Notes under the pieces: generated by a model
What the model saw: the letters and a program-made list of their open reading frames with translations, nothing else
Databases searched by the model: none
What the model was told of the DNA's origin: nothing
Part shown: piece by piece, positions 11,672 through 14,737 of the stretch
How the letters are laid out: each line of letters begins with the position of its first letter
How positions within the stretch are numbered: position 1 is the first letter of the stretch
Source: Micromonospora sp. NBC_01813
GTDB lineage: Bacteria; Actinomycetota; Actinomycetes; Mycobacteriales; Micromonosporaceae
DNA length: 64,000 nucleotides
Direction: 5' to 3'
Assembly: GCF_035917335.1 (NCBI RefSeq)
Contig: NZ_CP109067.1
Span: 7,067,001-7,131,000 of the forward strand
Made by a program: the position numbers and the translations under genes

Positions 11672-11787
11672 CCTGCGACACCGCCAGGTCGGCGCAGCGG
11701 AGTCGACCGGCAGCTCGGGTTACCGATCGTTAAGTCCAGCACGTTAGAGTGCTAGCCACTGGTGCGCGCGTGGACGAGGAGATGCAG

Positions 11788-12636
11788 ATGGCTGGTCGGC
11801 TGGCAGTGATCGGGGCCGGGTTGATGGGATCGGGCATCGCCCAGGTCGCCGCCCAGGCAGGCTGGCAGGTCACCCTGCGCGACCTCGACGACGCCGCCAC
11901 CGCCCGGGGCGTGGACGGCATCCGGCGGTCGCTGGAGCGGTTCGCCACCAAGGGGGCCATCAGCACCGACGACGTCGAGTCGGCGATGGGCCGGATCACC
12001 ACCACCACCGACCTGGAGGCGGCCGGCGACGCGGACATCGTCGTCGAGGCCGTCTTCGAGCGGATCGAGATCAAGCACGAGGTGTTCCGGGCGCTGGACA
12101 AGATCTGCAAGGCGGACGCCGTCCTGGCCACCAACACCTCTGCGATCCCGGTGACCCAGATCGCCGCCGTCACCGAGCGCCCCGAGTCGGTGGTCGGCAC
12201 GCACTTCTTCTCCCCGGTGCCGATGATGAAGCTCTGCGAGGTGGTACGCGGCTACAAGACCGCCGACGCGACACTGGCTACCGCGAAGGCGTTCGCCGAG
12301 GAGATCGGCAAGACCTGTGTGGTCGTCAACCGGGACATCGCTGGCTTCGTCACCACCCGGCTGATCTCCGCGCTCGTCGTCGAGGCGGTGAAGCTGGTCG
12401 AGTCCGGGGTGGTCTCCGCCGAAGATCTGGACACCGCGTGCCGGCTGGGGTTCGGGCACGCGATGGGGCCGCTGGCGACCGTCGATCTGACCGGTGCGGA
12501 CGTGCTGCTGAACGCGTCGAAGAACATCTACGCGGACACCGCCGACGAGAAGTTCTTCCCGCCGGAGCTGCTGCAGCGCATGGTCACCGCTGGCGACCTG
12601 GGTCGCAAGACCGGCCAGGGCTTCTACGGCTACTGA
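11788..12636 (+). CDS. 3-hydroxybutyryl-CoA dehydrogenase
   Basis: This 282-residue NAD(P)-dependent enzyme interconverts 3-hydroxybutyryl-CoA and acetoacetyl-CoA. The Rossmann motif is GAGLMGSGIA at residues 8-17. The catalytic segment THFFSPVPMMKLCEVV carries the His and Glu pair, and DIAGFVTTRLIS lies in the second domain. The ATG at 11788 has GAGGAG at 11776-11781, 6 bases upstream; an ATG at 11782 is less well placed. The left 66-bp inverted repeat of the DUF559 cassette begins 8 bases after the stop and can form a hairpin, so it may terminate this gene. Confidence 0.93.
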   Translation: MAGRLAVIGAGLMGSGIAQVAAQAGWQVTLRDLDDAATARGVDGIRRSLERFATKGAISTDDVESAMGRITTTTDLEAAGDADIVVEAVFERIEIKHEVFRALDKICKADAVLATNTSAIPVTQIAAVTERPESVVGTHFFSPVPMMKLCEVVRGYKTADATLATAKAFAEEIGKTCVVVNRDIAGFVTTRLISALVVEAVKLVESGVVSAEDLDTACRLGFGHAMGPLATVDLTGADVLLNASKNIYADTADEKFFPPELLQRMVTAGDLGRKTGQGFYGY

Positions 12637-12644
12637 CCCACGAC

Positions 12645-12710
12645 CTTCATGATCAGGTGAGGCTGGTCCACGTCAAAATCGACGGGTGACGTGGATGAGC
12701 CTCACCTCGG
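12645..12710 (+). repeat. Left 66-bp inverted repeat of the DUF559 cassette
   Basis: This 66-bp segment is repeated in inverted orientation at 13817-13882 with a single difference (G versus A in GACGGGTGACG). It is itself an imperfect palindrome: 12655-12675 pairs with 12687-12707 at 19 of 21 positions around an 11-base loop. It lies 8 bases after the 3-hydroxybutyryl-CoA dehydrogenase stop. I see no target-site duplication outside it. Confidence 0.93.
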
Positions 12711-12814
12711 CGTCCTCGGCTTGGCTTCCGCTTGTGAACGGGGGCCTGTCGGATCGGTGACGGAATCCGGCTTACGGGGCAGTGGGTGAGGGGGCATCGG
12801 GGCAGACTCTGTCG

Positions 12815-13825
12815 ATGCCCCGCCCGGCCAGGATCCCACCCCAGTTGAGCTTCGACCCGTTCCGCGGCAGCGAGGCGGTAGCGGCCGGCCTGATCACCTG
12901 GCGGATGCTCGACGGCCCAGCCTGGCGCCGGCTCCTTCCGGACGTCTATGTGCACGTCGACTCGTACTTTCCCGACGACCACCGCATGTGGTGCATGGCC
13001 GCCGTGGCTCGCCTTACGTCCGGCGCGGCCATCTGTGGACTGAGTGCGGCCTACTTGTGGGGAGTCGACCTGCTCCCGCTCCGGCCGCGGATCCGGGGTG
13101 GCGGAACGACGGCGCCGGTGCCGGCGGCGCCAGTCCAGGTGGCGCTGCCGAGATCTGCCCGACCTGACCCGCACCCCAGGATCAATTACGTCTACTGGAG
13201 TCTCGACAAGGGCGACGTGACGTCGTTCTTCAACGGACTTACCGTGACCACTGAGGTCCGTACCGCATTCGACCTGGGTCGTTCCCTGCCCCGCGCTGAG
13301 GCGCTCGGGGCGATCGACGCACTCCTGCACCGCCGCCTGCTGACTCCGGAACGGCTCATGGGGTACGTCGACGCTCATCCTGGGGTGCGTGGGGTGAGGC
13401 AGGTCCGTGAACTGCTCCCTCTCGCTGAGCCGTTGAGCGCGTCGCCGATGGAGAGCCGCCTTCGCCTGTTGCTGCACGATGCCGGTCTGCCGAAGCCCAC
13501 CCCGCAGTACGTAGTGCGGGTTACGCCTCCTGGGGTATCGGGAGAATCCGGTGCGTTGGGGGTGCCCAGGGGCGTGGTGATCGGCCGGGTCGACCTGGCA
13601 TACCCGCAGTGGCGCATCGCGATCGAGTACGAAGGTGACCACCATCGGGAGCGCGCCACGTTCCGTAAGGATGTGCACCGCTTCAACGCGCTACGGCAGG
13701 CCGGCTGGCTTGCGCTGCGGTTCACTGCGGACGACGTACTCCGGCGAAGCGCAGAATTGACGCAAACAGTGCGGCAGGCGATCGCCGAGCGCGCCGGCTC
13801 AGTGCCAGCAACCCCACCGAGGTGA
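12815..13825 (+). CDS. DUF559 (Vsr/PD-(D/E)XK-like) protein with AbiEi-like N-terminus
   Basis: This 336-residue protein has an N-terminal winged-helix-like region (EAVAAGLITWRMLDG, then SGAAICGLSAAYLWG) of the sort found in AbiEi-type proteins. Its C-terminal DUF559 domain has the nuclease-like pattern ESRLRLLL, GRVDLAYP, AIEYEGDHH and GWLALRFTADDVL; D in VDLAYP and E in IEYEG are the likely metal ligands. Such proteins are often multicopy in actinobacteria and of unknown role. The ATG at 12815 has CAGACT at 12803-12808, 6 bases upstream, suggesting a leaderless start; a GTG at 12782 is an alternative. The last 9 bases lie within the right repeat of the cassette. Confidence 0.8.
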   Translation: MPRPARIPPQLSFDPFRGSEAVAAGLITWRMLDGPAWRRLLPDVYVHVDSYFPDDHRMWCMAAVARLTSGAAICGLSAAYLWGVDLLPLRPRIRGGGTTAPVPAAPVQVALPRSARPDPHPRINYVYWSLDKGDVTSFFNGLTVTTEVRTAFDLGRSLPRAEALGAIDALLHRRLLTPERLMGYVDAHPGVRGVRQVRELLPLAEPLSASPMESRLRLLLHDAGLPKPTPQYVVRVTPPGVSGESGALGVPRGVVIGRVDLAYPQWRIAIEYEGDHHRERATFRKDVHRFNALRQAGWLALRFTADDVLRRSAELTQTVRQAIAERAGSVPATPPR

Positions 13826-13882
13826 GGCTCATCCACGTCATCCGTCGATTTTGACGTGGACCAGCCTCACCTGATCATGAAG
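13817..13882 (-). repeat. Right 66-bp inverted repeat of the DUF559 cassette
   Basis: This is the inverted partner of 12645-12710, identical at 65 of 66 positions. It contains the last codons and TGA (13823-13825) of the DUF559 gene and ends 7 bases before the stop of the convergent ABC permease. Arms 13820-13840 and 13852-13872 can fold into a hairpin, so it may also act as a bidirectional terminator. Confidence 0.93.
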
Positions 13883-13888
13883 AAGAGG

Positions 13889-14737
13889 TCAGCCGTCGCG
13901 TTTGGTGGTCCAGCGGAACGTGGTCAGGCAGAGCACCAGGCCGATGATGCACCAGATGCCGAGCACCAGCGCGACCATGCCGAGCTCGAAGGAGCCGCCC
14001 GGCTCCTGGGTGCCGAAAGCTTCGGGCAGGAAGACCGACCGCAGTCCCTGACACATCCACTTGAGCGGGAAGAGTGCGGCGATCTGCTGCATCCAGCCGG
14101 GCAGACTCGTGAAGACGAAGAAGACGCCCGAGATGAACTGCAGCACCAGCGAGATCGGGGTGGCGACCGCGGATGCGCTGCGCCCGCTTCGGGCCAGTGA
14201 CGAGAAGGCGATGCCGCAGAGCGTGCAGGCGGTGATCCCGAGCACCGACACCCAGCCCAAAGTGAACCACTTGAACGCCGTATCGGGAAGGTCCAGGTCG
14301 AACAGCAGGGTCGCGACGGCCAGCAGCAGCACGGTCTCGGCGAAGCCGATCACCGCGACCATGATCACCTTGCCGGCGAAGTAGACCCACTTCGGCATCG
14401 GGGTGCCGCGCAGCCGCTTGAGTACGCCCCGGTCGCGCTCGATCGGGATCTGGATGGCCAGGCTCTGGAAGCCGACGGTCATCAGCCCGGTGGCGATCAT
14501 GCCGGTGACGAAGTACTGGGTGAACCGGACGCCATCGGTGATCTCCCCGGTGAAGATCGACGCGAAGATCAGGATCATCAGGACCGGGAAGGCCATCGTG
14601 AAGACGACCGACTCGCGGCTGCGCATGAACTGCTTGATCTCCAGCCGGCCCTGCCGCAGCCCGAGCCGCGCCGGCCCGACCCGGACAACGGCCGGCGGGG
14701 TGACGGCGCTGGCGGTGCCGCCGGTGGTGGCGTTCAC
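13889..14737 (-). CDS. ABC-2 type exporter permease
   Basis: This 282-residue membrane protein is the permease of a DrrAB-like exporter. About six hydrophobic segments are visible, including VVFTMAFPVLMILIFASIF, ILGITACTLCGIAF-like core helices and MVALVLGIWCIIGLVLCL. The cytoplasmic segment IERDRGVLKRLRGTPMPKW is typical of ABC-2 permeases. The GTG start at 14737 overlaps the stop of the ATPase gene as GTGA, indicating translational coupling. Its 3' end converges on the right repeat of the DUF559 cassette. Substrate is unknown; such pairs often export drugs or lipids. Confidence 0.88.
   Translation of the reverse strand: MNATTGGTASAVTPPAVVRVGPARLGLRQGRLEIKQFMRSRESVVFTMAFPVLMILIFASIFTGEITDGVRFTQYFVTGMIATGLMTVGFQSLAIQIPIERDRGVLKRLRGTPMPKWVYFAGKVIMVAVIGFAETVLLLAVATLLFDLDLPDTAFKWFTLGWVSVLGITACTLCGIAFSSLARSGRSASAVATPISLVLQFISGVFFVFTSLPGWMQQIAALFPLKWMCQGLRSVFLPEAFGTQEPGGSFELGMVALVLGIWCIIGLVLCLTTFRWTTKRDG

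Follow-up and report, generated by a model that had tools for sequence, protein, structure and literature searches.

A clade of Vsr-like DUF559 nuclease genes paired with lineage-matched, dispersed palindromes in actinobacteria

A clade of DUF559 nuclease genes is paired with palindromes that match the lineage of the gene and are dispersed through the genome, and this pairing is well supported. It was observed in the anatomy of the element, the association of gene and palindrome, the lineage specificity and dispersal of the palindromes, covariation within the hairpins and the conservation of nuclease residues. We put the probability at roughly 0.55 that the Vsr-type nuclease and its cognate palindromes form a two-part, REPtron-like system without an HUH enzyme. 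The element lies in a window of 64,000 nucleotides, positions 7067001-7131000 of a 7.63-Mb genome that we label G000 and call the own genome.

The two arms that bracket the nuclease gene (Table 1) are 66 nt long and 98% complementary, matching at 65 of 66 positions in inverted orientation with a G/A in the loop as the sole difference. Each arm is also a hairpin of its own, with 21-nt stems in which 19 of 21 positions pair (90%) and an 11-nt loop. The figures given for the arms in the initial annotation were therefore exact on re-measurement, and its description of one gene between the arms, with a stop codon supplied by the right repeat, was confirmed for the DUF559 gene. Placement of the stop codon within the palindrome is not general: among the 37 homologues that carry a 3' hairpin, there are 11 whose hairpin starts before the gene ends. 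An alternative ATG at 12815 resembles, by eye, the start of the homologues. The same sigma-70-like pattern occurs in each window palindrome, directed away from the gene (12676-12649 on the minus strand and 13851-13878 on the plus strand), as a match to the consensus only. A search of positions 12500-14000 against Rfam gave no match up to E 1.

Table 1. Features of the element and its neighbours, in positions of the window.
Feature	Position	Strand	Remarks
Left neighbour, 3-hydroxyacyl-CoA dehydrogenase family ("hadB" for short)	11749..12636	+	anchors the locus in other genus genomes
Left 66-bp palindromic repeat	12645..12710	+	stem 12655-12675/12687-12707, loop 11 nt
DUF559 / Vsr-like nuclease gene	12782..13825	+	ORF from GTG 12782, 347 aa; TGA 13823-13825 inside right palindrome
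DUF559 match	13589..13783	+	contains D271, E282, H288 and D297 (347-aa ORF numbering), conserved in the clade
Right 66-bp palindromic repeat, inverted copy of left	13817..13882	-	stem 13820-13840/13852-13872, loop 11 nt
Right neighbour, ABC-2 type transporter permease family	13889..14737	-	anchors the locus in other genus genomes

The product of this chromosomal gene is best read, from profile matches and a structure model, as an AbiEi-like region followed by a putative C-terminal Vsr/EDxHD nuclease. In Pfam the protein matched DUF559, a family of unknown function, above its cut-off (4.9e-06) and MTES_1575 below its cut-off (8.6e-06), and nothing else; NCBIfam gave no match. MTES_1575 has been described as a Vsr REase domain within a larger protein, in a text whose available part makes no mention of palindromes (PMC3710099), and according to the accessible portion of a report on Caulobacter, the DNA damage response there depends on a DUF559/Vsr-like protein (PMC12907096). 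Across the clade rows, D271 and H288 are conserved in 52 of 52 and E282 and D297 in 51 of 52, with one row that has a garbled tail counted. A structure model was built for the residues from 12818 on with 10 sequences (mean pLDDT 81.5). Its predicted C-terminal domain had the homing endonuclease I-Bth0305I as best Foldseek match (3r3p_B; probability 1.00, TM 0.76 by target, E 0.036) and a putative endonuclease-like protein as second (3hrl, probability 0.96); no match reached E<=0.001, and ribosomal proteins, superposed with poor rmsd, were also among the top rows. The only match of the profile among PDB sequences was again 3r3p (E 0.095). The middle region drew weak AbiEi matches in PADLOC, the best (3.8e-07) over residues 103-185.

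Protein searches returned 31 homologues above 200 bits in the seven genus genomes, the own genome included, and matches at 1e-60 in 32 of 121 family genomes. We examined a subset of all matches, 53 loci with one distant homologue (L139) among them, and dropped a gene split by an insertion (L138), leaving 52. A 3' hairpin was called at a score of at least 13 and an arm of at least 17 between stop-45 and stop+120, in the same way for clade genes and for controls, which were 50 other genes or gene ends of the window. By this measure, 37 of 52 clade genes had a 3' hairpin against 5 of 50 window genes, two of these five being the element's own arms seen from the neighbours. The Fisher value of 1.3e-10 for this comparison counts orthologues separately and overstates the case, because the clade genes are not independent. 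A shorter 3' window at a score of at least 14 gave 16/52, many of the 3' hairpins falling outside it. With equal windows for genes and controls, hairpins at both ends were found at 13 clade genes when 700 bp upstream were searched and at 8 when 300 bp were, and at none of the 50 controls either way. A hairpin stood at one or other end in 44 of 52; 15 genes had no detected 3' hairpin and 8 had none at either end. Placement at the 3' end was commoner than at the 5' end (37 versus 15 or 20 of 52). Chance hairpins of a G+C-rich genome were rejected as an explanation, a score of 14 being reached by 1 in 300 random 105-bp stretches.

Where both ends carried a palindrome, the upstream and downstream copies were homologous at all 13 genes (local score 56-106; the median between different genes was 16). 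These 13 genes represent seven lineages, as grouped by hand, and the palindrome sequence differs between lineages; in G007 both 53-nt flanking hairpins are identical. A DUF559 sub-clade (L153, L155, L156) has upstream palindromes of 81-83 nt with a different core. Among the other PF04480 genes of the own genome, outside the clade, one of five (L015) had a 3' hairpin, of the L139 type, and the remaining four had none at the 3' end.

The arrangement extends to distant homologues. Ten of these were taken from named genomes of Microbacterium, Antribacter, Bifidobacterium, Brachybacterium and Leucobacter, and five (four from Microbacterium, one from Leucobacter) had matching hairpins on both sides, in sequences unlike those of the window. 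Palindromes of the same gene scored 56-76 against each other and those of different genes 8-40, except for the pair L055/L057, which share a common type and in both of which the downstream hairpin lies about 375 bp beyond the ORF. At L055, L056 and L063 the flanking pair were the only hairpins (score at least 13, arm at least 14) in more than 8 kb. L058 had two hairpins near its 5' end, L059 had one upstream, and three of the ten had no hairpin at the gene.

Further copies of the window palindrome were found in the own genome by BLAST, and a covariance model, R1, was built from 21 copies. The left arm matched it with 71.0 bits (G000:7079653-7079709; the copy is itself among the 21 rows of the model) and the right arm with 71.2 bits (G000:7080818-7080874). 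Every one of the seven genus genomes had 30-61 R1 matches, most places matching on both strands, so that the true figure is roughly 15-30 places per genome; the search of host and relatives that the initial annotation had proposed thus uncovered a dispersed family in all seven. In the R1 alignment, 9 of 23 pairs had changed on both sides, in 34 such cells against 12.6 in shuffles, and none of 500 shuffles reached 34. Pairing kept despite sequence change could reflect selection for a hairpin, in DNA or in RNA, or it could stem instead from mutational correction within quasi-palindromes.

The genome sets of two palindrome families are tied to clade genes. At 1e-8, R1 matched 9 of the 121 family genomes, namely the seven of the genus, G052 (36 matches) and G030 (a single match). 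A second model, R2, was built from five palindromes of another genus and at 1e-7 matched seven of the 121 (five genomes of g33 together with G041 and G042), none of them an R1 genome. The two sets of genomes are disjoint, and 15 of their 16 members hold a homologue or a remnant of one: among the 15 with more than one palindrome match, a clade gene at 1e-60 is present in 13, and the other two (G106, G120) have a truncated remnant between two R2 palindromes. G030, with its one R1 match, had no clade gene at 1e-60. G052 belongs to a genus (g7) whose other sampled genomes had no R1 match at 1e-8. At one locus in G106, G120 and G038 (L204, L205, L208), truncated or frameshifted DUF559 genes still lie between two R2 palindromes, and the palindromes thus outlast the gene.

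Specificity was also apparent within the genus, though with exceptions, when genes and palindromes were sorted into orthogroups (OG-A, OG-D and OG-F, a grouping made in this analysis). With 40 candidates per genome scored, BLAST found 10 places with OG-D-type palindromes in G000, 8 each in G004 and G005, 3 in G002, 2 each in G003 and G006, and 0 in G001, the genus genome without an OG-D gene. OG-F-type palindromes are present in the own genome, where no OG-F gene was found. Similarity between proteins and similarity between palindromes were weakly correlated (Mantel r 0.25, p 0.0026, for 21 representatives; r 0.45, p 0.0057, for 9), and L126, L128 and L135, from one locus, have unlike palindromes (score 0.09-0.18) despite a protein identity of 0.69-0.77. 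Most palindromes measure 53-68 nt, with outer arms that differ by lineage and a loop of about 11 nt. An inner half-site, A-C-[GC]-T-N-A, is common to most lineages, with T at position 8 in 38, C at position 10 in 37 and A at position 6 in 33 of 42 half-sites, of which only 21 are independent because the halves of each palindrome pair. These counts come from 21 hand-chosen palindromes, some from one locus, with L139 and L153/L155/L156 left out; by eye, the palindromes of those four lack the core. A separate 52-bp stretch (L180 1453-1504), mostly 86-96% conserved, recurs widely in the genus genomes, in some cases close to DUF559 loci, and may be the terminal part of a gene family present in repeated copies.

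We next compared loci across the genus. The initial annotation had raised the case of a gene fixed at this locus in all relatives without the repeats; instead, the nuclease gene was found here in two of seven genus genomes (G000 and G003), with palindromes both times. Both flanking palindromes are present in G003, in direct orientation. The G003 orthologue (L066 1870-3598; G003:C1:1953200-1959500) is interrupted by an insertion that carries Y1 (IS200-like) and OrfB_IS605 genes, and its flanking palindromes remain. In the other five genomes the locus between hadB and the ABC permease holds different genes, in segments with one such palindrome in G001, G004 and G005; G006 has one palindrome as well (2468883, inside L069). 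Paired palindromes are closer to each other within a genome (65/66 in G000, identical 51-nt cores in G003) than to their orthologues (90-91% between genomes). This pattern held in both genomes with the gene and agrees with the initial view that near-identity reflects recent copying, but gene conversion would fit it equally well.

The notion of a self-propagating element fared less well. Many nuclease genes occupy shared syntenic loci within the genus, so that the unit gives no visible sign of present mobility, and at the loci compared neither a palindrome nor the complete unit was observed as a clean insertion. Likewise, the comparison of empty sites in relatives yielded no clean empty site with a target duplication for a lone palindrome at the hadB-ABC, HAD-serS, L217 or OG-D loci. 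The cargo at hadB-ABC differs between genus genomes, which precludes a simple occupied/empty comparison there; the one palindrome absence that was seen (G006, L217 region) is part of a 256-bp indel; and in the OG-D alignment G006 lacks the 3' palindrome, with edges that are not clean. Plasmids or phages as carriers were set aside as a main explanation, since plasmid records contained only 6 weak homologues and phage records 1 (29-34% identity).

A palindrome-like sequence of at least three types stands at one position of the HAD-serS locus in all seven genus genomes: OG-D in G000 and G004, R1 in G001 and G005, OG-A in G002 and another hairpin in G003 and G006, with differing genes adjoining. 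This intergenic locus and hadB-ABC are two insertion hot spots. Both (L064-L069 and L197-L203) hold varying small genes that resemble, for the most part by eye, TA, GntR, kinase and acetyltransferase genes. Within the L217 region, similarity to four of six relatives (G001, G003, G004, G005) starts just to the right of a palindrome, a break in synteny, and where G000 has VapBC and an R1 palindrome, G001, G004 and G006 carry an OG-F-type palindrome. The VapBC pair adjoins a palindrome in G000 (L217 17787-18422), and stretches 79-80% identical to it lie elsewhere in G001, G004 and G006. A 1.5-kb segment of the same region (L217 8073-9622), which shares 99% identity with five further places in G000, is perhaps an insertion sequence. 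At these three chosen loci, palindromes thus often mark the edges of variable segments.

Could the palindromes be ordinary bidirectional terminators, or mRNA 3'-end hairpins spread as a repeat, with the DUF559 genes as passengers in repeat-rich accessory regions? We regard this as unlikely, although the position of solo copies speaks for it. Among 29 solo sites in the own genome (25 from R1 and 4 of OG-D type from BLAST, DUF559-linked copies excluded, genes called by a simple ORF caller), there are 13 between leftward gene pairs, 4 between rightward, 10 between convergent and 2 between divergent ones. Repeats that lie at gene ends as ordinary terminators, unlinked to DUF559 genes, would count against the reading of the initial annotation, and this was borne out in part: 27 of 29 face at least one gene 3' end, which leaves room for a terminator role. 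None of the 29 lies wholly inside a called ORF, four overlap an ORF end by 18-53 nt, and the distance to the nearest called gene reaches about 1.2 kb, a placement that fits REPs and terminators alike. The right arm of the window element sits between convergent genes, and palindromes also adjoin VapBC, GntR-family and other genes. By contrast, no T run follows either stem in the window sequence (a terminator scan also found none, but it allowed loops of 3-8 only and is blind to these 11-nt loops). Actinobacterial terminators often lack T runs. Terminators would leave several things unexplained: the match between upstream and downstream copies of one gene together with the difference between lineages, the disjoint R1 and R2 genome sets tied to clade genes, and a core common to lineages with different arms.

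Three further readings give the protein another role. That it is an AbiEi-like autoregulator, with the palindromes as operators and the solo copies as its regulon, seems quite improbable to us. AbiEi-type antitoxins bind inverted repeats in their own promoter, the AbiEi matches cover the middle region, and several homologues have a palindrome about 80-175 bp upstream of the gene; against this stand the excess of 3' over 5' placement, the scarcity of divergent solo sites, compensatory arm changes at freely varying positions, which point to pairing and not to base reading, and the conserved nuclease residues. We think still less of a free-standing homing endonuclease that cleaves at the palindrome and whose own gene homes into the cut copies, the solo ones being sites still vacant. 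I-Bth0305I is both the nearest fold and the only PDB sequence match, the gene has a palindrome on both sides, and it is patchy at the window locus, but active homing predicts many palindromes occupied by near-identical genes, whereas the genes within one genome have diverged from each other and many keep their syntenic place across genomes, and no single palindrome was found occupied in one genome and empty in another. The AbiEi-like region with its weak PADLOC matches, and the occasional proximity of VapBC and further accessory genes, would suit a defence or genome-guarding nuclease with palindromes as decoys or self-marks, a role to which we assign a very small probability.

On the most economical reading, the nuclease would recognise the palindrome and also spread it; binding, cutting and repair-driven copying are the inferred steps. 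One part of the system would be the chromosomal gene for the AbiEi-like region and C-terminal Vsr/EDxHD nuclease, and the other the cognate hairpin palindrome, at one or both gene ends and in a few to some thirty solo intergenic copies. The nuclease would recognise the palindrome as a duplex, or as a cruciform or hairpin, and would nick or cut it close to its conserved centre. With another copy as the source, repair would then homogenise and spread the palindromes, and could let the DNA between two of them be exchanged, which would make palindromes the edges of variable cargo. Only tentatively, at odds somewhat short of even, do we extend this to actinobacterial Vsr/DUF559 nucleases at large, as dedicated enzymes of a large and diversified class of REP-like palindromes, each lineage recognising its own palindrome through the shared core, spreading and homogenising it by cutting and repair and making cargo edges.

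If true, this would be a second enzyme class, unrelated to the HUH-type RAYTs, that is paired with its own palindromes. It would also give part of an answer to what moves REPs that have no dedicated enzyme, give DUF559 proteins a role, and offer sequence-specific nucleases with readable sites. Open-access titles and the starts of abstracts contained nothing linking DUF559 to palindromes, and a prior description elsewhere is possible; nor did the open-access literature join AbiEi with DUF559, or REPs with actinobacteria and a nuclease.

Known systems share some features with this pairing. I-Bth0305I (EDxHD/Vsr-like, PDB 3r3p) is the best solved fold match of the predicted C-terminal domain, and the conserved D, E and H residues together with this match (E 0.036) suggest a Vsr-like catalytic fold like that of EDxHD homing endonucleases; by its PDB name it is a mobile-intron protein, whereas here a free-standing gene encodes an AbiEi-like region as well and is flanked by palindromes. 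AbiEi antitoxins (type IV TA) resemble the middle region weakly in sequence, but here palindromes stand at both gene ends, and no cognate AbiEi toxin gene lies beside the window gene, both neighbours belonging to other families. Where dedicated enzymes have been proposed for palindromic repeats, they are RAYTs of the HUH type, and in the available text of Di Nocera 2013 (PMC3733652) the mover of REPs without one is left open. CGTC-tagged REPs are said there to lack a dedicated transposase, and CGTC precedes the stem in some copies here; their stems are 8-9 bp, and the main text, as available, does not mention actinobacteria.

The closest parallel is the REPtron (tnpA-REP/RAYT with REP/REPIN), in which matching palindromes likewise flank the gene and extragenic solo copies are found genome-wide. 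A REPtron gene is described, in the parts of the sources available, as single-copy and without evidence of mobility (PMC8266576, PMC3116915), as is a given gene here, and REPs are reported to be extragenic and often at gene 3' ends (PMC3733652), where the present palindromes often stand too. The differences lie in stems of about 21-29 bp, against 20-40 bp for REPs in all (PMC3733652), in tens of copies, against more than 100 as given in the accessible text of PMC2817692, and in a Vsr/PD-(D/E)XK-type nuclease in place of the HUH enzyme. By eye, the GTAG tag was absent at the ends of the 21 R1-alignment copies and from the flanks of 9 copies. Y1 (PF01797) had no match in G000 or G002, and five of seven genus genomes have some; dispersal by IS200/IS605 elements in the own genome was rejected for want of a Y1 match. 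The initial analogy to RAYT genes and REPs, with a Vsr-like protein replacing Y1, gained support from the lineage-specific matching end palindromes, the dispersed solo copies and the Y1 search of the own genome, which gave no match. With both the HUH enzyme and the GTAG tag absent, the pairing is not a REPtron, though like one in layout: judged by layout alone it would be, more mildly, a variant of the REPtron plan, and its novelty rests on the enzyme class.
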